This document shows positions 2,578 to 33,554 of a DNA stretch of 44,845 bases, one piece after another; the stretch's first letter is position 1; every line of letters begins with the position of its first letter. The position numbers and the translations under genes were made by a program. Location of the stretch: the IMG/VR virus record IMGVR_UViG_3300034257_000035, positions 1 through 44,845 of that record; one strand, given 5' to 3'. The notes beneath the pieces were generated by a model that saw only the letters and a program-made list of their open reading frames with translations, had not been told where the DNA came from and ran no database searches. The stretch comes from a virus.

Positions 2578-4413
2578 ATGGCAATAAATCTTGGAAGTGC
2601 ATACGGAAAAGTTAGCCTTGATGTAAAGGGTTTGCTGACTGGTGTTGCCAGCGCCAAGTCTGGTATTAATTCGCTGCACGAATCTGCCGTGAAATTAGGG
2701 GCACAGATGAAAGATGTTGGGCAAAAGATGACCATTGGTTTGACTTTGCCCATTTTAGCGTTGGGAGCTGCATCTATAAAAATGGCTTCCGACATGGTGG
2801 AAACAAAGAGCAAAGTTAAAGTCGTTTTTGGTGAGATGACTGATGATGTGATGAAGTGGTCTGAGGGTTCGTCGAAAAGTATGCAGCTCTCACAACAAGA
2901 GGCTCTTGAAGCAGCGGCGACCTTTGGGAATCTGTTCGTTGCGATGAAGATCGGAAAACAAGACGCTGCGGAGATGTCCACAGTGCTGGTTCAGTTGGCC
3001 GCTGACTTGGGATCAATCAATAATATCGATCCATCTGTTGTGCTGGTGAAGTTAAAATCAGGTATTGTCGGTGAAACGGAAGCGGTGCGTGATTTAGGTA
3101 TTGATTTACGCATGATTGTCGTGGAAGCTAAAGCGGCGGAAATGGGCTTCAAAGAACTGAATGGACAATTTTCCCAGGGAGATCTAATTGCTGCGCGCTA
3201 TGCCATTATTTTAGAACAAACAAAAGTTGCCCAAGGGGACATTGCAAGGACAGGTGGGGAATTGGCAGGGCAAATGCGCACGCTGAATGCGCAATGGAAA
3301 GATGCCCTGGCAATTCTAGGGCAGAATTTATTGCCGATCGCTTTGAAATTTGTCACCATGCTCAATAACATGCTGGAAGCATTCAACAAGATGTCACCAT
3401 TTCAACAAAAGGTCATAATCGGGTTTTTGGCATTGGTCGCGATCATTGGTCCGCTGTTAATAGTGTTCGGAACTTTATTGCCGATGATCCATCTTACGAC
3501 CAGAAGTATAAATCCGCTTTCAGGTGGCATATTTGGATTGGTATTTAGTCTTGTCAAACTTCTTGCGGTGCTTTCCATCGTTGTGAAGGTACTGGCATTT
3601 TTAGGCGTTTCGACTGGTCCCGTCGGTGCTGGAATTCTGGGATTGAACGCGGCAGTTGTGGGTGTTGGTGGATCGATCCTTGCTGCGTTGGCTCCGGTCC
3701 TGTTTCTTCTGCTCACGATCGCGGGCGTAATTGCGTGGTGGGCGGTTGCATGGAAGATCAACCTATTCTATATTCGCGATACCGTAGCTTCGACCGTGAG
3801 GATTATCAAAGCCTTGTGGGGTGCGTTGACTGCGTTCCTGCGTGGCGATACGGAGGAAGCGATGGAGTTTTTGCAGGCTGCCTTCGACGCGTTCGGTGAG
3901 CATGTCAATCTGATTTTCATGAAGGTGTTTGGCATCAAAGATGCGTGGGCAAAGTTTTTTGATTTTATGCGGGATGCGTTGGGCAAGACCGTATCTTTCA
4001 TTGTCAAGACTTTCACCAACATGGACTGGTCGCTGGTGGGAAAATCTATTTTGTCGGGCATTGCCAATGGAATGCTGTTGGGCTTGCCCACGTTGTTAAT
4101 AACTGCGGGGCGTGTCGCCACTTCGGTGCTGGCAGAGATCAAGAAGTCTTTGGGCATCAGTTCACCATCTACAGAAGCGATGAAGCTGGGGGCGTTCACG
4201 GCGCAGGGTTTCATGCTGGGAATGCAGACCATGAACCCTGATGATATTGCGCGTTCATTGACCCGACCGATCACGAATAACAGCAATTCACAAAATCAAA
4301 CCATCGTTCAAAATTTTTCAACTGGTCTCAGCTTGAAGCAAGTCCGCGCGATGATCGATACCAAGGTGGATGCGCTTGCGAATGAATTGATTAACAATTT
4401 GGGAGGTGCTTAG
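2578..4413 (+). CDS. Tail tape measure protein
   Basis: 611 residues, the largest gene after the chaperone pair. It begins with a Gly/Ala/Lys-rich helical region, has a core with repeated amphipathic helices, several long hydrophobic stretches near residues 270-400 (such as 'FLALVAIIGPLLIVFGTLL'), and an Ala-rich end, the pattern of phage tape measures. At roughly 0.15 nm per residue the tail would be about 90 nm. The stop lies one base before the ribosome site region of the next gene's ATG at 4415. Identity is firm from position and composition. Confidence 0.85.
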   Translation: MAINLGSAYGKVSLDVKGLLTGVASAKSGINSLHESAVKLGAQMKDVGQKMTIGLTLPILALGAASIKMASDMVETKSKVKVVFGEMTDDVMKWSEGSSKSMQLSQQEALEAAATFGNLFVAMKIGKQDAAEMSTVLVQLAADLGSINNIDPSVVLVKLKSGIVGETEAVRDLGIDLRMIVVEAKAAEMGFKELNGQFSQGDLIAARYAIILEQTKVAQGDIARTGGELAGQMRTLNAQWKDALAILGQNLLPIALKFVTMLNNMLEAFNKMSPFQQKVIIGFLALVAIIGPLLIVFGTLLPMIHLTTRSINPLSGGIFGLVFSLVKLLAVLSIVVKVLAFLGVSTGPVGAGILGLNAAVVGVGGSILAALAPVLFLLLTIAGVIAWWAVAWKINLFYIRDTVASTVRIIKALWGALTAFLRGDTEEAMEFLQAAFDAFGEHVNLIFMKVFGIKDAWAKFFDFMRDALGKTVSFIVKTFTNMDWSLVGKSILSGIANGMLLGLPTLLITAGRVATSVLAEIKKSLGISSPSTEAMKLGAFTAQGFMLGMQTMNPDDIARSLTRPITNNSNSQNQTIVQNFSTGLSLKQVRAMIDTKVDALANELINNLGGA

Positions 4414-4414
4414 C

Positions 4415-4786
4415 ATGGCTGAGTTTGAAATTGGCACAACACAAGTTGGAATGACAAACATCGAATCTCTGGCGACGCCGGTTCCACTGCCACAGTTTGA
4501 TTACCTGCCCTTCGCACGTGTGGTCAATCTCGGAAGCGGAGGGACACGTGGTGTGGGGTCTCCTGTGGCAACATGGACGTTCGGATTGCTTTCCATCCAG
4601 GAATATAACCAGTTGAGAACCTTCTGCGCGGGCGCATCAGCAGTTGTATATATTCGCACCCGGGTGGACGATGATACCTATGACGATTTTCAGGCAAAGA
4701 TGATCTGGCCCAACGAGGGGCAAGGCCGTTGGTTTGGCAATAGAAAAAATTTCGTGATCACATTTCGAAATCTAGTGGCGGTATAA
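4415..4786 (+). CDS. Distal tail / minor tail protein
   Basis: 123 residues starting at the ATG behind GGGAGG at 4401-4406. It is mostly beta (FEIGTTQVG, ATWTFGLLS, VVYIRTRVDDDTYDDF) and ends 'NFVITFRNLVAV'. Between tape measure and the large tail-tip protein, such genes usually encode tail-tip or distal tail pieces. No diagnostic motif is seen. Confidence 0.5.
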   Translation: MAEFEIGTTQVGMTNIESLATPVPLPQFDYLPFARVVNLGSGGTRGVGSPVATWTFGLLSIQEYNQLRTFCAGASAVVYIRTRVDDDTYDDFQAKMIWPNEGQGRWFGNRKNFVITFRNLVAV

Positions 4787-4787
4787 G

Positions 4788-7742
4788 ATGGCACGTGCCC
4801 TCACCGGCCCTGAGCTCACACTTCTCCGCTCGAATGGACCATGGAGTAAATTGTATTTGGCGATCCTAAAGCCAAATACGATCTATACAGCGCGGCTGGC
4901 ATCCCTGCCTGGCTCCACTGACCTGGTGTATGAGATCACCTTCACATCTGGCTCTGGCACTTTGGCTGATGTGAAGCCTGGCATGACGCTTTATGTGGGC
5001 TCCACTTTAGGAGCGTATGACCTGGGCATGTGCTGCATCCGGAAGAACCCGATCAGCGGGACTTTTTATATCAGGCTTACGAGTGCGATCGTTTGGCAGG
5101 GCAGTTGTTATCTCACAGTTGTGGATGACTTCGAACTGTGGGCGAAACATGCGATCCTTGTAGATGATGAGCTGATCATGGATGTGGACGTGGCTTACAG
5201 TGATCAGCATGAAGATTTCAACCCTGTGCCCATTCTGGGATCTCACGCGGTTGCTAAATTAGAGAGTGCAACAGTCGATGTGCAATTGGGGCCAGAAGAT
5301 GGAGATGCATCCTGGGTGATTGGTTCCACCATATCTTCAATTCTCTGGGTGATCCCTGATGCAGTCAGCATCGATGACGCTACAAACGCAAGACCGATTG
5401 CAACGTTCGACAGTGTTGGCAATCATGTGGCTTATTGCACTGTGACCGCTGCGAATGGTAAGACCACAACAGGCGTTAGACAAGTTTTTATTTGGGATGA
5501 TGAAAATCCACCGGCGACGGTGTTTCAACTGGCTCAGGCAGTGGCAGATTATCAAACGGGTGGATGGATGTTCGATCTCGTGATGGAAGCTGAAGCCAGC
5601 CTGAGCGAGATCCGTGATCGATCATTGGTTGCCCTCTTCGCTGAGGATATTTATGGGATCCCGCCTAATCAAGTGTTTCAGTCCATCGGTCCGCTGGAGG
5701 GACGCGAGAATATTGTTTGTGTGGGCCGCATCATGGGAGAGAGCATTCGCTGGGACCGTGAATCGGGTCTGGTCCATTTCACGGTGCAGGGCGCACACCA
5801 TTTCCTTAATAAGATCAAAGGATTCCCCATCGAGTTATCTTTTGTCACTGGGCTGGCAGCTGCGTGGTCCGAGATGCCCGTCATGACCGTGGACCGTGTG
5901 CTCTTTCATCTTTTGTACTGGCATTCGACTGTAATCGAGACGATGGATTTTTATCCCACGAATGACACAAATTATTTGCCTGAAGGAAAGTCCATGGCTT
6001 CGATGGTCTGGGGGCAGATGCTGGATATCGCCATGAGCAGGCTGGTGGCGTCTCCAGGCGTGGACCGCTTTGGAAGATTGTTCGTTGAGATCGATCCGCA
6101 GATGGTGCCTGAAGCGGACCGTGACTGGCCAACCGTGATGGCGCTGACCGATGATGACTGGCAGGAAGGCATTGACCTGCAGCGCGTGATCGTGAACGAT
6201 GTTTCGCTCATCAGGCTTTCCACGCACCAGGTGAATTCATCGGGCGTGACTGCAACGCTTTACAGCCTTTCGCCCGGGCACACACCGATGCGACATGGCG
6301 AGCCTGAGATGGCAGACCGACTCCTGGCAGCCTCACAGAGCGACGCAAATTCAAAAGCGGGACTGTTGATGGGGTGGCGCACCAATCAGTTCCCTGATGT
6401 GCCTATGGTGCTGGCTCAGAACAACCGCATGATCGATCTGTGGCCAAGGCAGTTCTGCGCGCTGGCCATGCAAACCACAGACAACCCGCGTGAGGTGGCA
6501 TTCGATGGCAACCTGATCCCGCGGCGCATTACATTTTTATTTGATGGCGACATTGGATATCTGCATGCAGAACTCAACTTCGAAGCTGAGACCTTCGAGC
6601 AGATCTCGGTGGATGGTGATATCCCTGATCTGGATGGCCTGGACATCTCGTTCCCACCGGAACCAGAACTACCTCCGTTACCTGATTTCCCGATCCTTCT
6701 ACCTGGTGATGGCCCCAAGATAGGACCCAAACGGGTTCTCTTCCACGATCCATCAAAAGGCTTCATTTACTGCAAAAATTTTTATGAGGATTCCACTAAA
6801 ACCCTGTATGCGACGGTCAATTCTGGTCTGAGCGCAGATCAAAGGGCGTTTGCCAATTTCATGTTCATCTGCCCGAATGGGGCTTTCTATGTCGGAAGAA
6901 TTCGAGCAGTGGATGATAGCAACTATACGACCAGCCCGCCATTCATTGCGCGTGCGCCCTTCATTGGTGCAACGTTCACGATCCTATATGATGAGCCAGC
7001 CATGCGCCCGTCGCCCTTCGCGGGGAAACAGTGGGGATTATTCGCAGTAGCGCACAACCCGCTTCTCTCTGAAAAAGTGGCGTTCATTATGGGGACGGTG
7101 AATGAAAACAAAAAGTTTTGGATAGGCTCAGGCAGTTCTTTTGCTCCCACCATAGATGCTGATCCGACAAGCTTTTTCCCTGGCGGGTTATCTTTTGGGA
7201 AAGGCTATTGGCTCTATACCCGCGATGATGTTTGGGCCACAGCCACACCCGATGGAACTTCGTCACCTGCCAGCGGGACTGAGAGTATCGACGATCTATA
7301 TCAAGACGTTCCTTTTGTCAGTCACGTCAGAGCCAGCACAACAGGACGCACATTTCACACAAAACCAGGCGGAGGCGGGTTGGTCGTTGCTGAGGACAAT
7401 CTTTCCAGCATCACAACGATCACCGATGCTGACTTCCCCGACGGTCCTGGCTTTGCCTGTGACCCCACTGGAAATTATCTGATGACACGTTACGGAGCAG
7501 GGGCGCGCGGCAAATCTTCTGACGCCGGCGCAACCTGGGCGACCATGGGAAGTTTGCCCGTTGGGATCTGGACGTTTCAATATGCGGGTGACGCGGGAGT
7601 AGAATCTCGTTGGATCGCAGCGGGAGCAGTGATCAGATACACACCGGACTTTGGCGTGACCTGGGAGAATAAAGAATCAAGCAGCCTCAACCAGATCACT
7701 TTTTTTCCTGAGATCGATATGATCCGGGTTGTGGAATTTTAA
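4788..7742 (+). CDS. Large tail-tip protein with C-terminal Asp-box propeller-like region
   Basis: 984 residues, the longest protein here. The N-terminal two-thirds read as tail-hub/host-specificity type sequence. A Pro-rich linker (FPPEPELPPLPDFP) sits near residue 620. The last third contains two Asp-box (BNR) motifs of the form S/T-x-D-x-G-x-T-W: 'SSDAGATW' and 'TPDFGVTW', with other beta-propeller-like stretches around them. Asp-box propellers are typical of glycan-binding and sialidase-like proteins, so this end may bind or trim host surface glycans; no glycosidase active site was identified. It overlaps nothing and is followed at once by the fibre gene. Confidence 0.7.
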   Translation: MARALTGPELTLLRSNGPWSKLYLAILKPNTIYTARLASLPGSTDLVYEITFTSGSGTLADVKPGMTLYVGSTLGAYDLGMCCIRKNPISGTFYIRLTSAIVWQGSCYLTVVDDFELWAKHAILVDDELIMDVDVAYSDQHEDFNPVPILGSHAVAKLESATVDVQLGPEDGDASWVIGSTISSILWVIPDAVSIDDATNARPIATFDSVGNHVAYCTVTAANGKTTTGVRQVFIWDDENPPATVFQLAQAVADYQTGGWMFDLVMEAEASLSEIRDRSLVALFAEDIYGIPPNQVFQSIGPLEGRENIVCVGRIMGESIRWDRESGLVHFTVQGAHHFLNKIKGFPIELSFVTGLAAAWSEMPVMTVDRVLFHLLYWHSTVIETMDFYPTNDTNYLPEGKSMASMVWGQMLDIAMSRLVASPGVDRFGRLFVEIDPQMVPEADRDWPTVMALTDDDWQEGIDLQRVIVNDVSLIRLSTHQVNSSGVTATLYSLSPGHTPMRHGEPEMADRLLAASQSDANSKAGLLMGWRTNQFPDVPMVLAQNNRMIDLWPRQFCALAMQTTDNPREVAFDGNLIPRRITFLFDGDIGYLHAELNFEAETFEQISVDGDIPDLDGLDISFPPEPELPPLPDFPILLPGDGPKIGPKRVLFHDPSKGFIYCKNFYEDSTKTLYATVNSGLSADQRAFANFMFICPNGAFYVGRIRAVDDSNYTTSPPFIARAPFIGATFTILYDEPAMRPSPFAGKQWGLFAVAHNPLLSEKVAFIMGTVNENKKFWIGSGSSFAPTIDADPTSFFPGGLSFGKGYWLYTRDDVWATATPDGTSSPASGTESIDDLYQDVPFVSHVRASTTGRTFHTKPGGGGLVVAEDNLSSITTITDADFPDGPGFACDPTGNYLMTRYGAGARGKSSDAGATWATMGSLPVGIWTFQYAGDAGVESRWIAAGAVIRYTPDFGVTWENKESSSLNQITFFPEIDMIRVVEF

Positions 7743-10188: not shown

Positions 10189-10213
10189 CTCCCTGCTCAT
10201 TTCGAGCCGGGAG
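10189..10213. terminator. Two-way terminator between converging operons
   Basis: CTCCC-T-GCTC (10189-10198), loop ATTTC, then GAGC-C-GGGAG (10104-10213 side at 10104 corresponds to 10104+0; arms are 10189-10198 and 10104..., i.e. 10104 should be read as 10204-10213) make a 9-pair hairpin with one mismatch. On the - strand it is followed by a T-rich run (complement of AATAAAAA at 10181-10188). It sits where the late operon and the integrase gene converge and overlaps the last integrase codons. Confidence 0.6.
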
Positions 10214-11807
10214 GTTTGCTTTCCACGGGATAAGTAAAAAGTTGCCTATATAGATGTGCCCCCACGGGGTCTGGTGACTTAGACAACGTGGGGATGAGAT
10301 CAAAAGGGGGCGGGTAGTAGTAGGTGATGAAGGCACGGATGTGCTTTCCATCACGCTCCGCGATGATATCATGTACGATTCCACGCAGGAGCTGCCTGCG
10401 CTGTTCGATGGGGGAGTGGTTGAGGTGTTCGACCAGGGCCTGAGAAACGGTTTCAATTTCCGGCGTGGAAAGATGCGGGATCGTCTGAATGGGGACAAGC
10501 AATCCTTCAATTTCCGCCTTCACCTGAGCACGCATCGATTCCTTTTGTTTGAGCGCATCCAGGAGTGCATCCGAATGGCCAGAGTCTGCGATCGCTTTTG
10601 TGATGTTGGCGATCTGACGTGAGAGCTCACCACGTTCGTCACTTAATGCAGACTTGCGTTCTGCGCGCTGGGTCTCACCGGTGGTCTGATTCTTGATGGC
10701 GATCTCCTGAATGGCTGTGAGATTTTCTGGGGTGAGGATGTAATCAGTTAAAGTGGATAGCACCAGGTCTTCAATTTTTCGACGTGAGATGCGTCCCGCG
10801 TCACAATCGCGGCGACGTTTGGCGCGTGAGCAGCGATAGCCTTCATCCCGTCCGTGGAGGGCTGGGCGTGTGGTGGTGTTGCCATTCATGGGAGCTGAAC
10901 ATCTTGCACAACGGATGATGCCGCTGAGCAGGTAAATGGATGTGACTCGTTTGGGGTGTGAGGCTCCGAAGCGGGTTTGGGATGTGGCTTTGATCTTCGC
11001 CTGGACCGCGTTCCAGGTGCTCATGTCTATGATCGGGTCGCAATATTTTTCAATGACCATATCCCCGAATTCGAGAATGCCAATATAAATTGGATTGGTG
11101 AAAAAGGTGCGATATGAATTCAGGGATGAATAAAGCCGCGTGGATTTGTGGATCTCGAAAAGTGTGGACCCTTTAGCGCGCATCTCGAACGCTTTGCGGA
11201 CCTGGTGAATCAGTTTTTTATCTGGTACCCATTTGTGATTTTTACGTTCTTCGCCGGTGCGTGCGTTGACGGTGAAGAGGGGCACACGCTTGAAGCCACG
11301 TGGTGGTGTGCCTGGCACGGCTCCCTGGCTGACGATGGAGCGCAGCCCGTCTTTTGCATCGATGCCCGTCTGCCTGGAGCGTTCTTCGTTGGAGATGTCG
11401 ATCAGGGTTTCGACGAAGCGGGCATACGGACCTTCAGGGATCGGATCGGTGAGTGAATGGATGATCAACCCGTTGCGTCGCAGAAACGATTTGTAGTATT
11501 GTGAATCATCCAGTTCACGCGCGAACCTTGCAAAGTTCCAAAGCAGCAAGCCATGGGGGTTGCTCTCAATTTCTTTGCTTTGCGCGATCATCCGATGGAA
11601 GTCATCACGCCCGGCTGTGGTGGTGCCTGATTTGGCTTCGTCTTTGAAGACACGCACGAGCATCAACTGACGTTCCTTGCACCAGGCTATTATCGCTTCG
11701 AGCTGACGCGGGATCGAGCGGTCCTGTTTTTCTCCACCACTATCGCGCAGATATGCCCAGACAGTGGAACCAGGTGGAAGTGTGGAGGGAGGCGGGAGGA
11801 GATTCAT
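10197..11807 (-). CDS. Large serine recombinase (phage integrase)
   Basis: 536 residues. The resolvase-type catalytic domain (about 1-150) shows 'YLRDS' with the nucleophile Ser23 and the 'FARFARELDD' segment near 91-101. The recombinase domain (about 165-290) is followed by a zinc ribbon with Cys300, Cys303, Cys326 and Cys335, and then a coiled-coil stretch near 385-430 that in this family controls integration versus excision. It inserts phage DNA into a host attB. attP should lie close to one end of the gene; I could not identify it. The gene is last in the leftward lysogeny operon, 26 bp after the Excalibur gene. Confidence 0.92.
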   Translation of the reverse strand: MNLLPPPSTLPPGSTVWAYLRDSGGEKQDRSIPRQLEAIIAWCKERQLMLVRVFKDEAKSGTTTAGRDDFHRMIAQSKEIESNPHGLLLWNFARFARELDDSQYYKSFLRRNGLIIHSLTDPIPEGPYARFVETLIDISNEERSRQTGIDAKDGLRSIVSQGAVPGTPPRGFKRVPLFTVNARTGEERKNHKWVPDKKLIHQVRKAFEMRAKGSTLFEIHKSTRLYSSLNSYRTFFTNPIYIGILEFGDMVIEKYCDPIIDMSTWNAVQAKIKATSQTRFGASHPKRVTSIYLLSGIIRCARCSAPMNGNTTTRPALHGRDEGYRCSRAKRRRDCDAGRISRRKIEDLVLSTLTDYILTPENLTAIQEIAIKNQTTGETQRAERKSALSDERGELSRQIANITKAIADSGHSDALLDALKQKESMRAQVKAEIEGLLVPIQTIPHLSTPEIETVSQALVEHLNHSPIEQRRQLLRGIVHDIIAERDGKHIRAFITYYYPPPFDLIPTLSKSPDPVGAHLYRQLFTYPVESKPPGSK

Positions 11808-14510: not shown

Positions 14511-15091
14511 TGGCAATGCAACAGTTGGCGTTTGGGGGCATGAGACGCGTGAGCTTTTGCTCACGTTGTAAGAAACCATTGAGCAACCCAGCGTCTGTGG
14601 ATGCAGGCATGGGACCAATTTGTAGAGGTCACAACCGAGGAGCTGACATGAATATTTCCAAACGAGATAATTTTGCTGATGAAGAAATTAAAGAGGATAT
14701 CAATCTGAGCGAGGCATTGGTCTTACAGCGTCATGGGGACGATGATCATTCGATCGTGCGGACCAATGTTCCGCACCTGGTCGTTCATCATTCTCCAAAT
14801 GGCTTTGAGTTTGGCTATGGCGGTTCAGGTCCTGCGGATCTGGCATTGAATGTATGCCAGGCTTATCTGAATAGCATTGACTATCAAGGTGAGAAATCGG
14901 AATGCTTTGATGGCAATTGCTGGTCGCTGGCATGGGTGCTCCACCAGGAATTCAAACGTGCATTCATTGCAGGTGCACCGCGAAAAGGTATTGTGATTCC
15001 GACGTCGGAAATCAAGCGTTGGTTTGACGAACACATCACGGATGATATGAAGCGCATTTATTCAACGATGATCGAAGATGAGCTTGAGTAA
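14510..15091 (+). CDS. DUF6011/DUF6166-like protein
   Basis: 193 residues. The N-terminus has the DUF6011-type zinc motif 'CSRCKKPLSNPASVDAGMGP' ending in a distant Cys. From about residue 95 it has 'FGYGGSGPADLALNV', the signature stretch of DUF6166 proteins found in phages and mobile elements, followed by a region that ends acidic. The combination in one chain is unusual but both motifs are clear. Function unknown. Its stop shares a base with the start of the tyrosine recombinase, so the two are coupled. Confidence 0.65.
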   Translation: MAMQQLAFGGMRRVSFCSRCKKPLSNPASVDAGMGPICRGHNRGADMNISKRDNFADEEIKEDINLSEALVLQRHGDDDHSIVRTNVPHLVVHHSPNGFEFGYGGSGPADLALNVCQAYLNSIDYQGEKSECFDGNCWSLAWVLHQEFKRAFIAGAPRKGIVIPTSEIKRWFDEHITDDMKRIYSTMIEDELE

Positions 15092-15990
15092 TGACCTGGC
15101 AAACCGACTTCCCCGATTATCTCGCATCCCTGGGCAGGGCCCAGGGCACCATCTCAGCCTATTGCAGCGATATCAAAGTCTATGTGCGCTGGTATGAAGC
15201 CACCAACAACGAAGCCTTTCAACCCTCCGTGCTCGTGGCGCCAGATCTACGTGAATGGCGGTACCACTCCATCAACGTCGAGAAGGTCAACCCTGCCACC
15301 TGGAACCGCAGGCGCATCAGTCTCATCGTCTTTGCGAATTGGTGCATGCAGGAAGGCTTCATCCAGGAAGATCCACTGCAAGGTGTCAATCCCATGGCCA
15401 TCGTAGAACTGCCTCCATTCTGGCTCAACCCGGATGAGTTTCGACGGGTCCGCAGGCACATGGATATCGCCATCAACACCGCCAACACCGAACTGCAACG
15501 CAGCACCGCCATCCGTGATCGTGCCATCAACTCGCTCATGCTCTATGCCGGTCTGCGTGTCAGTGAAGTTGTGAACTTGCAGCGCGAAGACCTACTACTG
15601 AGGGAGAAGAGTGGACACGTCAACGTTCGATGCGGCAAAGGTGACAAGTTCGCATTGGAACTTCCACTTGGAAAAGAAGCGCGTCTCGCATTGCAAGCCT
15701 GGATGGATATCCACCAACAAGAAGATGGACTCCTCTTCGAAGGGCTTTCAGCGCGCCAAATACAACGCAGCGTCTCTGACCTTGGCCGGGCTGCCAAACT
15801 GGAGGGTGCACTCACGCCTCATCGCTTCCGTCACACCTACATCCGCAGGTTATCTGTGGACGATGAAGGCAAGCCAGTCAATCCCGGAGCATGGGTCACC
15901 TATCTTGCGCGTCACTCCACTCGCCTCACAACAGAACGTTACTATCAGGCATCACGCGATGACCATCAACGTATGGTTGAGAATATGTAG
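15091..15990 (+). CDS. Tyrosine recombinase (Xer/phage integrase type)
   Basis: 299 residues. A SAM-like core-binding domain (about 1-95) is followed by the catalytic domain with the full set of residues: R156 (LYAGLRVSEV), K183 (GKGDKF), H244-x-x-R247 (TPHRFRHTY), H275 (LARHSTRLTTERYY) and nucleophile Y284 or Y285. At 299 residues with a short N-terminal part it resembles XerC/D more than large phage integrases that have an arm-binding domain. With a serine integrase already present, resolution of genome multimers in the plasmid state is a plausible role. A 440-bp gene-free stretch follows. Confidence 0.88.
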   Translation: MTWQTDFPDYLASLGRAQGTISAYCSDIKVYVRWYEATNNEAFQPSVLVAPDLREWRYHSINVEKVNPATWNRRRISLIVFANWCMQEGFIQEDPLQGVNPMAIVELPPFWLNPDEFRRVRRHMDIAINTANTELQRSTAIRDRAINSLMLYAGLRVSEVVNLQREDLLLREKSGHVNVRCGKGDKFALELPLGKEARLALQAWMDIHQQEDGLLFEGLSARQIQRSVSDLGRAAKLEGALTPHRFRHTYIRRLSVDDEGKPVNPGAWVTYLARHSTRLTTERYYQASRDDHQRMVENM

Positions 15991-16390: not shown

Positions 16391-16602
16391 GGTAACTATC
16401 TAGCTGTCTCACCTGAAAGGCATTGAGAAATGTTTATACAAACCCCAGTCACCATGCCGTTTGGCAAGGGAATGCTACCGCCCGATCATCCACCTGGATG
16501 GAACAATCTCAGCGAGAAAGAAAAACGGAAGTACGAAAAGAAACCGAAGAAGCCAAAAAGCAAGGCGAAGAAGTGACATTATGACGAAATAGGTGAGTCA
16601 AA
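16391..16602 (+). mobile_element. Decayed small gene cassette (copy 0)
   Basis: The left end GGTAACTATCTAG (16391-16403) followed by TCTCACCTGAAAGG matches the left end of the intact cassette at 33258 (CTCACCTGAAAGG is identical). One ORF (16430-16576) follows with its own ribosome site. The right end keeps AGGTGAGTCAA (16591-16601) but the outer GTATATAGTTACC is gone and no 8-bp duplication can be read, so the element looks truncated or old. Confidence 0.55.
16430..16576 (+). CDS. Small basic cassette-borne protein (48 residues)
   Basis: Starts 15 bases after the cassette's left repeat. The first half is Pro/Gly-rich (TMPFGKGMLPPDHPPGW) and the second half a run of Lys and Glu ending in 'KPKSKAKK', so it may bind nucleic acid. 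No family recognised. Carried by the decayed cassette at 16391. Confidence 0.5.
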   Translation: MFIQTPVTMPFGKGMLPPDHPPGWNNLSEKEKRKYEKKPKKPKSKAKK

Positions 16603-25250: not shown

Positions 25251-25312
25251 AAAGGCAGGGTAACTATATACCTACCACGCACAACTAGACAACTTGAAAA
25301 GGAGTAAATGAA

Positions 25313-25525
25313 ATGGATACTGGACAAGGAAAGTTTGAGCAAGTGCAAGCGACCAACGAACAGCAACTTGAAGAAATGAAAAAGTTACTCGAAGGGAAAC
25401 ACCCGAATCATGGCGGATGGTTTCGAGAGGGCGAGATTGTGCAATTGAAAGGCAGTACCTTTCGAGTGAAGCGCATCAAGCCAACTGAAATAACGCTGAA
25501 ACTCATGAAACGAGTTGAATCATGA
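25313..25525 (+). CDS. Small cassette-borne protein A (70 residues)
   Basis: ATG at 25313 behind AAAAGGAG. A charged helix (about 1-28) precedes a beta section 'GEIVQLKGSTFRVKRIKPTE', reminiscent of small barrel/KOW-like folds in phage accessory proteins. The stop overlaps the next ATG (ATGA), so the two genes of the cassette are coupled. Family not recognised. Confidence 0.6.
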   Translation: MDTGQGKFEQVQATNEQQLEEMKKLLEGKHPNHGGWFREGEIVQLKGSTFRVKRIKPTEITLKLMKRVES

Positions 25526-25743
25526 ACCAAAATCGAATAGAGATTTACAACGTCGAAGGGAAAGTCAAGAGAACTGGAAAAACCGTAGTGCTTGAGATTG
25601 AAACAGGCGGAGCGGTTTTAGAGATGCACTTTGGCGACCCCGTTCAACTGATGAACTTCTTTGTTCTAATGATGGAAGATATGGCAAAGGTGTTCCCGGA
25701 TTTTGAAGCGTCTAAGCTTTGGCTTGACGATAGTTTCAAGTAA
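25522..25743 (+). CDS. Small cassette-borne protein B (73 residues)
   Basis: ATG overlaps the stop of protein A. Beta-rich first half (IEIYNVEGKVKRTGKTVVLE) and an acidic helix with Met and Phe at the end (MNFFVLMMEDMAKVFPDF). It stops just before the right end of the cassette. Family not recognised; accessory 'moron' role is plausible. Confidence 0.6.
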   Translation: MNQNRIEIYNVEGKVKRTGKTVVLEIETGGAVLEMHFGDPVQLMNFFVLMMEDMAKVFPDFEASKLWLDDSFK

Positions 25744-25777
25744 CCATGCGTGCCAAGTATATAGTTACCAAAGGCAG

Positions 25778-26022
25778 GGCAACAATATACTTGACACACC
25801 TATGGAGTAAATCATGAGAATGTCGATTGTAACCACGATGGAAGAGCTGCAAGAAGGCGACCATTTGGTATCCGAAGAGATTTACAAAGAGCTTGCGCTA
25901 CTTATTATGGTGAAAACACACCAAGATTGGTATCTCTGCGTGATTTGTCGTGTAAACCCAGCCAGCGCCAACAGGTCTGTATGCGAGAAATGCTGGCCAG
26001 GTGTGTCAAGTATATAGTTACC
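25778..26022 (+). mobile_element. Gene cassette 2 with inverted ends (245 bp, one gene)
   Basis: Left end GGCAACAATATAC followed by TTGACACACCT (25778-25801) and right end AGGTGTGTCAA followed by GTATATAGTTACC (25999-26022) pair over 24 bases with two mismatches. AAAGGCAG flanks it left (25770-25777, shared with cassette 1) and right (26023-26030). The gene's stop TAG lies inside the right end. Confidence 0.75.
25814..26017 (+). CDS. Small cassette-borne zinc-ribbon protein (67 residues)
   Basis: ATG at 25814 with GGAG 8 bases upstream. Two Cys pairs, 'CVIC' and 'CEKC', 16 residues apart suggest a zinc ribbon. The last residues (PGVSSI) and the stop are encoded by the cassette's right repeat, so the ORF fills the cassette. 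Role unknown. Confidence 0.6.
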   Translation: MRMSIVTTMEELQEGDHLVSEEIYKELALLIMVKTHQDWYLCVICRVNPASANRSVCEKCWPGVSSI

Positions 26023-26040
26023 AAAGGCAGAGACTAGATA

Positions 26041-26730: not shown

Positions 26731-26738
26731 ATTCTTAA

Positions 26739-27013
26739 GGCAATAATATACTTGACACACCAAGGAGAAAAAACGATGGAAACAAGATGTAAAAACCATG
26801 CAACTTTCAGATACACATGGCCTGGTAAAGATGAGAGCTTCGCCTGCTTGGAACATGCAGCCCAATTACAGAAAATAGCATCCATATTAGGCATGTATTT
26901 GCAAATTATCCCAATCGTTCAATACGAAGGAGAGATATTTTGCACCCAAATAGTAAGCGACAAAAACGCCTTAGAACAAGTCGATGACTAGGTGTGTCAA
27001 GTATATAGTTACC
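26739..27013 (+). mobile_element. Gene cassette 3 with inverted ends (275 bp, one gene)
   Basis: Left end GGCAATAATATAC then TTGACACACC (26739-26761), right end AGGTGTGTCAA then GTATATAGTTACC (26990-27013). ATTCTTAA flanks it exactly on both sides (26731-26738 and 27014-27021), a perfect 8-bp duplication. One ORF, whose TAG stop overlaps the first bases of the right end. Confidence 0.78.
26776..26991 (+). CDS. Small cassette-borne protein (71 residues)
   Basis: ATG at 26776 behind AAGGAG. Contains Cys and His early ('RCKNHATFRY', 'FACLEHAAQL'), a possible metal site of C-x-x-H and C-x-x-H type, then a hydrophobic helix and 'QYEGEIFCTQIVSD'. No family recognised. Fully contained in cassette 3. 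Confidence 0.6.
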   Translation: METRCKNHATFRYTWPGKDESFACLEHAAQLQKIASILGMYLQIIPIVQYEGEIFCTQIVSDKNALEQVDD

Positions 27014-27025
27014 ATTCTTAACCGC

Positions 27026-27175
27026 ATGCAACAAGTACCTATTCTTAACCGCGAAGAATGTTTGCGTGCGCTCGGACAGGTGCGCGAACGGGGATTGAAG
27101 GTTAAGAGGGGGAGGGGAGGAGTTGGCGAGTTGGTGTACGCGTGTGTGAGTGTGTGTGTTGATTGGAGATTTTAG
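27026..27175 (+). CDS. Possible small protein after cassette 3
   Basis: A 49-residue open frame from the ATG at 27026 (MQQVPILNREECLRALGQV...). Cassette 3 lies right before it, so an original ribosome site may have been separated from it. The end is low-complexity (GTGTGTGAGTG). ATTCTTAACCGC occurs at 27014 and 27041 as a direct repeat. Weak support. Confidence 0.25.
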   Translation: MQQVPILNREECLRALGQVRERGLKVKRGRGGVGELVYACVSVCVDWRF

Positions 27176-28044: not shown

Positions 28045-28674
28045 ATGGAATCAACAAGAATTAACGCTGGAGAAAAGTGGTGCACAAAAGGCAAGCACTT
28101 CGCACCGATCACCCAGTTTGGAATCGATAACTCGCGTGGTGATAAATTAGCCGCAAAGTGTAAAGACTGTTTACACAGTAAAAATCCGTGGGCTTCGCTG
28201 AAAGGCAGAATTTCAACGTTTCTTGGAAAGAGTCACACAGCAGCAGCCAAGGAAAAACAAAGCCTGGCTAAAAAAGGCAAGCCGAGTCTGAAGAGGGGAG
28301 TCGCTCGATCCAAAGGTGAACGGGAAAAGATCAGACTAACTGTCTTGAAAACACAGAAATATGGAGCCGATCATCCTAACTATAAGCACGGCAACAATGC
28401 AAGAAACTTGGATGCTAGGCGTGATCCAAAATACCGAGCATGGCGAAAGGCGGTATTTGAAAGAGATCATTACACATGTCAAAAGTGTGGTGACAACCGC
28501 GGCGGCAATTTGCGCGCTCATCATAAAAAGCCTTTTGCCAATTATCCTGAACTTCGTTTTGAAGTCAGCAACGGAATTACCTATTGCAACACGTGTCATG
28601 AATTAGAACATTTCAAGCCGGATAGTATTCGGAATCAAAGAAAGCTGAAACGCGGCGAGAGACTTTGGAGATAA
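28045..28674 (+). CDS. HNH endonuclease with NUMOD3-like repeats (homing type)
   Basis: 209 residues. N-terminal C-x(n)-C-x-x-C region (13-42), then 'GKSHTAAAKEKQSLAKKGKP', a NUMOD3-type DNA-binding motif found in homing nucleases. The HNH nuclease follows (about 130-190): 'RDHYTCQKCGD' with C145/C148, 'LRAHHKKPF' with H159/H160, and 'YCNTCHELEH' with C181/C184. Free-standing HNH homing enzymes spread by cutting gene copies that lack them, so the flanking region may be an invaded locus. The preceding spacer is a GATTGGAGATT-type leader. Confidence 0.8.
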   Translation: MESTRINAGEKWCTKGKHFAPITQFGIDNSRGDKLAAKCKDCLHSKNPWASLKGRISTFLGKSHTAAAKEKQSLAKKGKPSLKRGVARSKGEREKIRLTVLKTQKYGADHPNYKHGNNARNLDARRDPKYRAWRKAVFERDHYTCQKCGDNRGGNLRAHHKKPFANYPELRFEVSNGITYCNTCHELEHFKPDSIRNQRKLKRGERLWR

Positions 28675-33257: not shown

Positions 33258-33544
33258 GGTAACTATATACCTACCTCACCTGAAAGGAAACGGACTGATG
33301 GAAGAGAAAAAGAATAAACAAAAGTGGCCTGTGCATTACTCAAAGGATGGTGTTTGGTCAACGGGTGGCATGGGACGCCACATGGACGATGCTTTTTATG
33401 CCGAAGTTGAAGCATTTGACAGAGATGACGCCCAAGCGCAGGCAGAAAAGATGATGGCTGAAGATGAACTCAAGCCTGGCACTTGGGATTATTGGAACGC
33501 CGTAACATCTAAAGGTGGCTAGGTGAGCCAAGTATATAGTTACC
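33258..33544 (+). mobile_element. Gene cassette 4 with inverted ends (287 bp, one gene)
   Basis: Left end GGTAACTATATAC-CTAC-CTCACCT (33258-33281), right end AGGTGAG-CCAA-GTATATAGTTACC (33521-33544): 24-bp ends identical except for the 4-base block. ATAGGAAT flanks both sides exactly (33250-33257 and 33545-33552). The gene's TAG stop overlaps the right end. The cleanest copy. Confidence 0.82.
33298..33522 (+). CDS. Small cassette-borne protein (74 residues)
   Basis: ATG at 33298 behind AAAGGAAA. Lys-rich start (MEEKKNKQKWPVHYSKD), then 'VEAFDRDDAQAQAEKMM' and 'LKPGTWDYWNAV'. The acidic-helical middle resembles no family I know. It lies between late genes, so it may be expressed with them by read-through. 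Confidence 0.6.
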   Translation: MEEKKNKQKWPVHYSKDGVWSTGGMGRHMDDAFYAEVEAFDRDDAQAQAEKMMAEDELKPGTWDYWNAVTSKGG

Positions 33545-33554
33545 ATAGGAATAC

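Follow-up and report, generated by a model that had tools for sequence, protein, structure and literature searches.

The question raised by this locus is why one 8-bp sequence should stand three times around two small gene-bearing cassettes and whether its middle copy is a target duplication or the core of a recombination site. The window, by which we mean the whole stretch of DNA that was analyzed, is a 44,845-bp virus record that encodes a ParM-like partition protein and a large terminase. As the sequence-only reading of this DNA had stated, AAAGGCAG begins at 25251, 25770, and 26023, forming the edges of cassettes 1 and 2. Further copies at 25448, within cassette 1, and at 28201 are tied to no element ends, and 1.5 copies are expected in the window by chance; the nonrandom feature is the placement, in that three copies directly adjoin the outer borders of two pairs of terminal inverted repeats (TIRs). 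An exact triple of one 8-mer of this kind occurs once in the window. The features concerned are as follows.

16391..16602, plus strand: a fifth cassette, decayed, with a left TIR of 20/23 but no longer any right tip or duplication
25251..25258, plus strand: first copy of AAAGGCAG, shared 8-bp target duplication
25259..25769, plus strand: cassette 1 (c1), 511 bp, TIRs GGTAACTATATACCTACCACGCA / GGTAACTATATACTTGGCACGCA, without transposase
25313..25525, plus strand: c1a, 70 amino acids (aa), orphan, in c1
25522..25743, plus strand: c1b, 73 aa, orphan, in c1
25770..25777, plus strand: middle copy of AAAGGCAG, serving c1 as its right duplication and c2 as its left one
25778..26022, plus strand: cassette 2 (c2), 245 bp, TIRs GGCAACAATATACTTGACACACC / GGTAACTATATACTTGACACACC
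25814..26017, plus strand: passenger ORF of c2, 67 aa, orphan, stop codon within the right TIR
26023..26030, plus strand: third copy of AAAGGCAG
26731..26738, plus strand: left target duplication of c3, ATTCTTAA
26739..27013, plus strand: cassette 3 (c3), 275 bp, TIR subtype as c2
26776..26991, plus strand: passenger ORF of c3, 71 aa, orphan
27014..27021, plus strand: right target duplication of c3, ATTCTTAA
33250..33257, plus strand: left target duplication of c4, ATAGGAAT
33258..33544, plus strand: cassette 4 (c4), 287 bp, TIR subtype as c1
33298..33522, plus strand: passenger ORF of c4, 74 aa, orphan
33545..33552, plus strand: right target duplication of c4, ATAGGAAT, placed where the ribosome-binding site of the following ORF (33555) would lie

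The window contains four complete cassettes, each with TIRs of about 23 bp and perfect 8-bp duplications, the latter being of three distinct sequences. Two TIR subtypes can be distinguished, one shared by c1 and c4 and the other by c2 and c3. The inverted ends of the cassettes begin with GG, as is typical of the IS1595 family, and between them lie one or two very small passenger genes and no transposase, the arrangement of a mobile insertion cassette (MIC). The passenger proteins gave no significant family match in Pfam or PHROGs. Of the decayed fifth cassette, a 48-aa ORF at 16430 to 16576 and the inner right TIR (TAGGTGAGTCAA, at 16590 to 16601) can still be recognized. No RNA family was found in the region of the tandem pair, and no convincing promoter match spans the c1/c2 junction.

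A scan of viral contigs for the end sequence recovered elements that share these ends and are flanked by perfect 8-bp duplications; the smallest measures 245 bp and the largest almost 6 kb. Contigs other than the window contributed 42 elements with perfect 8-bp duplications. The long elements encode transposases with PF12762 and PF12760 domains that NCBIfam assigns to IS1595 (NF033547), and in bacterial genomes, as in viral contigs, IS1595 transposase genes lie in elements that have these ends and perfect 8-bp duplications. The IS1595 family (DDE_Tnp_IS1595) comprises relatives of eukaryotic Merlin. A wider search started from seven of these transposases, aligned, and located ends de novo; it yielded many more elements with ends of the same kind, GG and then a TATATA-like core. 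Small cassettes that carry different genes were seen in four contigs (L009, L013, L069, and L270). IS1595 insertion sequences have GG tips, 8-bp target duplications, and a transposase with a zinc ribbon and a DDE domain (PMC8101967), features that recur in the autonomous partners of the cassettes, whereas the window cassettes have the tips and duplications but no transposase, their cargo being limited to tiny genes. Because no match to PF12762 was found in the window, we can only infer that transposase is supplied in trans. On these sequence comparisons, we consider it highly probable (about 0.9) that the cassettes are MIC-like, nonautonomous members of the IS1595 family that bear small orphan genes, that they are mobilized in trans, and that the second of the tandem pair inserted into the duplication of the first.

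The ParM-like protein of the window is also encoded by three sister phages, L268, L248, and L069 (46 to 52% identity). At 3823 to 5606, L268 carries an autonomous element with two small ORFs and an intact 320-aa transposase (NF033547), and the terminal 24 bp of this element are identical to the right end of c1 (24/24). L248 has a 1,015-bp cassette (14767 to 15781) with two small ORFs, in which the reading frame of the IS1595 transposase extends no further than the zinc ribbon, and L069 has a cassette of 361 bp. The truncated-transposase cassette of L248 is the intermediate that would be expected, and the phage group offers each step of a series, with an autonomous element, a truncated one, and minimal ones. 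The second ORF of the L268 element ends in NNGKLGGRPKTKK, as does an ORF in L248. At the limits used, relatives of the L268 transposase were only distant in cultured phages (39% and 36%) and absent from plasmids. Past movement of c3 is suggested by its unoccupied site at a conserved flank in relatives, since ATTCTTAACCGC ... GCGTGCGCTCGGACAGG runs uninterrupted in L249 and, with ATTTTTAACCGC in place of GCGTGCGCTCGGACAGG, in L069. Beside c3, ATTCTTAACCGC is present twice, 27 bp apart (window positions 27014 to 27052), as a pair conserved in L069 and L249, and c3 is located in the first of these copies. No unoccupied site was found for the position of c1 and c2; the nearest relative, L244, is without the whole region.

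We suggest that a transposase provided in trans by a sister phage or by the host would cut a cassette at its GG...CC tips and insert it with an 8-bp target duplication; one cassette would already have been resident in AAAGGCAG, and the other would later have inserted by using exactly one copy of AAAGGCAG, giving the order AAAGGCAG-c1-AAAGGCAG-c2-AAAGGCAG. Of the two alternatives offered by the sequence-only reading, the first, that the second element struck the flank of the first exactly, is the best explanation. Three identical 8-mers arise because any insertion that leaves exactly 8 bp makes the gap the duplication of both elements; their sharing is a necessary outcome and therefore adds no evidence, and the anomaly lies in the exact gap. 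The refutation proposed earlier, a search for tandem junctions with different 8-mers, has no discriminating power, as an exact 8-bp gap forces identity. The ends, the 8-bp duplications, the family of the partner transposases, the autonomous partner with matching ends, and the unoccupied site of c3 can be read in the DNA itself; mobilization in trans, the order of events, and any steering of the second insertion by a nearby end we infer. Tandem duplication of a single cassette was ruled out, as c1 and c2 differ in TIR subtype and have no cargo in common. Movement of the c1-AAAGGCAG-c2 block in one step, as a composite transposon, would account for the fact that the 764-bp block is itself bounded by AAAGGCAG, but such a move requires a lucky match between the inner 8 bp and the new target (4^-8, 1 in 65,536), and we give this explanation almost no credence.

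The junction reads GTATATAGTTACC-AAAGGCAG-GGCAACAATATAC and does possess the layout of inverted arms around a spacer that had been noticed, although the arms are not of the claimed 13 bp but of 20 bp at 85%. This layout, together with the presence in the window of a tyrosine recombinase (PF00589; best NCBIfam match XerC, far below cutoff), lends some appeal to an Xer/dif, pdif, or loxP-like array with 13-bp arms and an 8-bp core on which the XerC/D-like protein at 15091 would act. Arms of more than 13 bp do not suit such a site, the ends are common to IS1595 DDE transposons, and no dif- or pdif-like site was found in the window at up to three mismatches to a dif consensus. Moreover, the putative core differs at every insertion (AAAGGCAG, ATTCTTAA, and ATAGGAAT) and in this behaves as a target duplication would, unlike a recombination core. 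The analogy with tyrosine recombinase systems was accordingly abandoned, and we regard it as very improbable. Integron and pdif arrays resemble the window in that small gene cassettes adjoin in one orientation, but they depend on a tyrosine recombinase as well as on a conserved core site, neither of which appears to apply to the cassettes described here. The integrase at 15091 scored 27 bits against a cutoff of 265 bits for an integron integrase. The window phage encodes a large serine recombinase (10197 to 11807, minus strand) in addition to the tyrosine integrase (15091 to 15990, plus strand).

Under transposition by an IS1595 enzyme, the second insertion could have been drawn to the resident end or could have fallen beside it by coincidence. 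Target duplications of the family display a strong preference for A/T at positions 2, 3, 6, and 7. When the 8-mers of the window were scored against a target profile derived from 45 further duplications of the family, ATTCTTAA (c3) and ATAGGAAT (c4) ranked within the top 0.3% and 1.3%, respectively, and AAAGGCAG proved a mediocre target, equalled or beaten by 20% of window 8-mers, and therefore no hot spot. That AAAGGCAG is not intrinsically preferred argues against two independent insertions, without attraction, in a small tolerant intergenic site and for a directed hit, in which the transposase or a target complex would be drawn to an end of its own family and insert in the adjoining 8 bp, so that arrays could grow. 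Four random insertions would include an exact hit with a low probability, 0.0003 for the whole phage, 0.002 for its noncoding DNA, and 0.01 for one fifth of the noncoding DNA, which again favors direction; coincidence gains from the last of these values, about 1% on the assumption that few sites are tolerated, from the fact that several relatives accept insertions in their accessory region, downstream of the gene for the ParM-like protein, and from the presence of but a single exact array in the window. In IS30, a second copy inserts beside a resident end, next to inverted repeats of its own kind (PMC9333248), as in the c1/c2 pair, and this precedent speaks for attraction, but IS30 differs in its copy-out/paste-in transposition, 2-bp duplications, and reactive IR-IR junction, whereas c1 and c2 keep the full 8-bp duplication.

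A collection of 84,980 genomes was scanned for the tandem-junction pattern, and three true cases emerged, all bacterial (L129, CAAATTAG; L138, TTTATAGA; L147, CAAGATTG), in which the perfect 8-bp duplication of an IS1595 element adjoins another end. The existence of these partial arrays favors a directed hit over coincidence, but the neighbors are incomplete, and the full triple is confined to the window: no right end was found for the neighbors in L129 and L138, which look like solo ends, and the neighbor in L147 is cut by the contig edge. With about 0.26 copy pairs per genome (samples of two phyla, seeds excluded), some 0.01 exact pairs would be expected over the 84,980 genomes, assuming uniform insertion, 3.7-Mb genomes, and the copy numbers of the two samples, against the three cases seen; by our own estimate, however, preferences for intergenic and A/T-rich DNA may lift this expectation to perhaps 0.1 to 0.6. 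A directed hit is further disfavored by the lack of a neighboring end at the duplications of all 42 elements of other viral contigs (0/42) and at the few chromosomal elements resolved, and by a search of 396 genomes of the seed's phylum that recovered only the seed. We regard the attraction of insertions by the family's own ends as no more than plausible. We give coincidence about even odds and treat a directed hit at this locus as possible; the general proposition, that IS1595-type ends attract family members into the adjoining 8 bp and that linear arrays of phage mini-cassettes are thereby built up through DDE transposition, we hold to be rather doubtful. The second alternative of the sequence-only reading, a junction that itself attracts cassettes, is in this sense weakly indicated, by the partial arrays and the mediocre target, with the 42 other viral elements standing against it.

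MICs and gene-bearing MITEs consist of transposon ends and a passenger gene, with no transposase and with direct repeats. The window cassettes match them in each of these features and are distinguished by being phage borne, by their IS1595 ends, by genes of 61 to 152 aa that are mostly orphans, and by the occurrence of several per genome, with one tandem pair; MICs have been discussed in PMC5444012, among others. Casposons, too, may occupy a single target as a tandem pair bearing TIRs and target duplications (PMC6563490), as c1 and c2 do, and a paper on the casposase describes tandem insertion as frequent among insertion sequences (PMC6977970), but casposons use another enzyme and particular target genes, whereas the cassette family has no fixed target. 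The SaTar MULEs of plants are small nonautonomous elements that, like the window cassettes, form nonnested linear arrays (PMC5907723); they differ in that their arrays are built by microsatellite targeting, and the window has only a pair. The component parts of the present system are known, and what is new is their combination, in which a phage carries gene mini-cassettes of the IS1595 type and two of these lie in tandem; the open-licence papers searched included none that deals with cassettes of this type in phages. They offer an explanation for the collection of tiny accessory genes by phages, in the form of transposon-ended cassettes probably moved in trans by the transposase of a sister phage. 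If it is true that the ends attract insertions, this would constitute an integrase-free route to cassette arrays, with integron-like growth in the absence of a fixed site. The cassette ends, the autonomous partner, and the array junction are now available as directly testable material.

Most of the 20 matches from the genome scan were set aside as a palindromic repeat with GATTGATC-like centers, found in alphaproteobacterial MAGs and not belonging to the IS1595 cassette family. Many copies of TATATAATTACC-GATTGATC-GGTAATTATATA and its variants are present in these MAGs (L128, L130 to L137, and L139 to L146), and the repeat seems unrelated to the cassettes. Scans of the viral contigs with two tandem-junction patterns returned nothing or only unrelated palindromes. 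A broader pattern gave one possible junction, in L259, for which outer duplications were not found; it lies in a cluster of three IS1595-like ends at 649 to 715 (TATATAATTCCC, TATATAAGTCCC-TTTGCGAA-GGGAACTATATA). A scan of the viral contigs with variable gaps added one candidate locus, L284.
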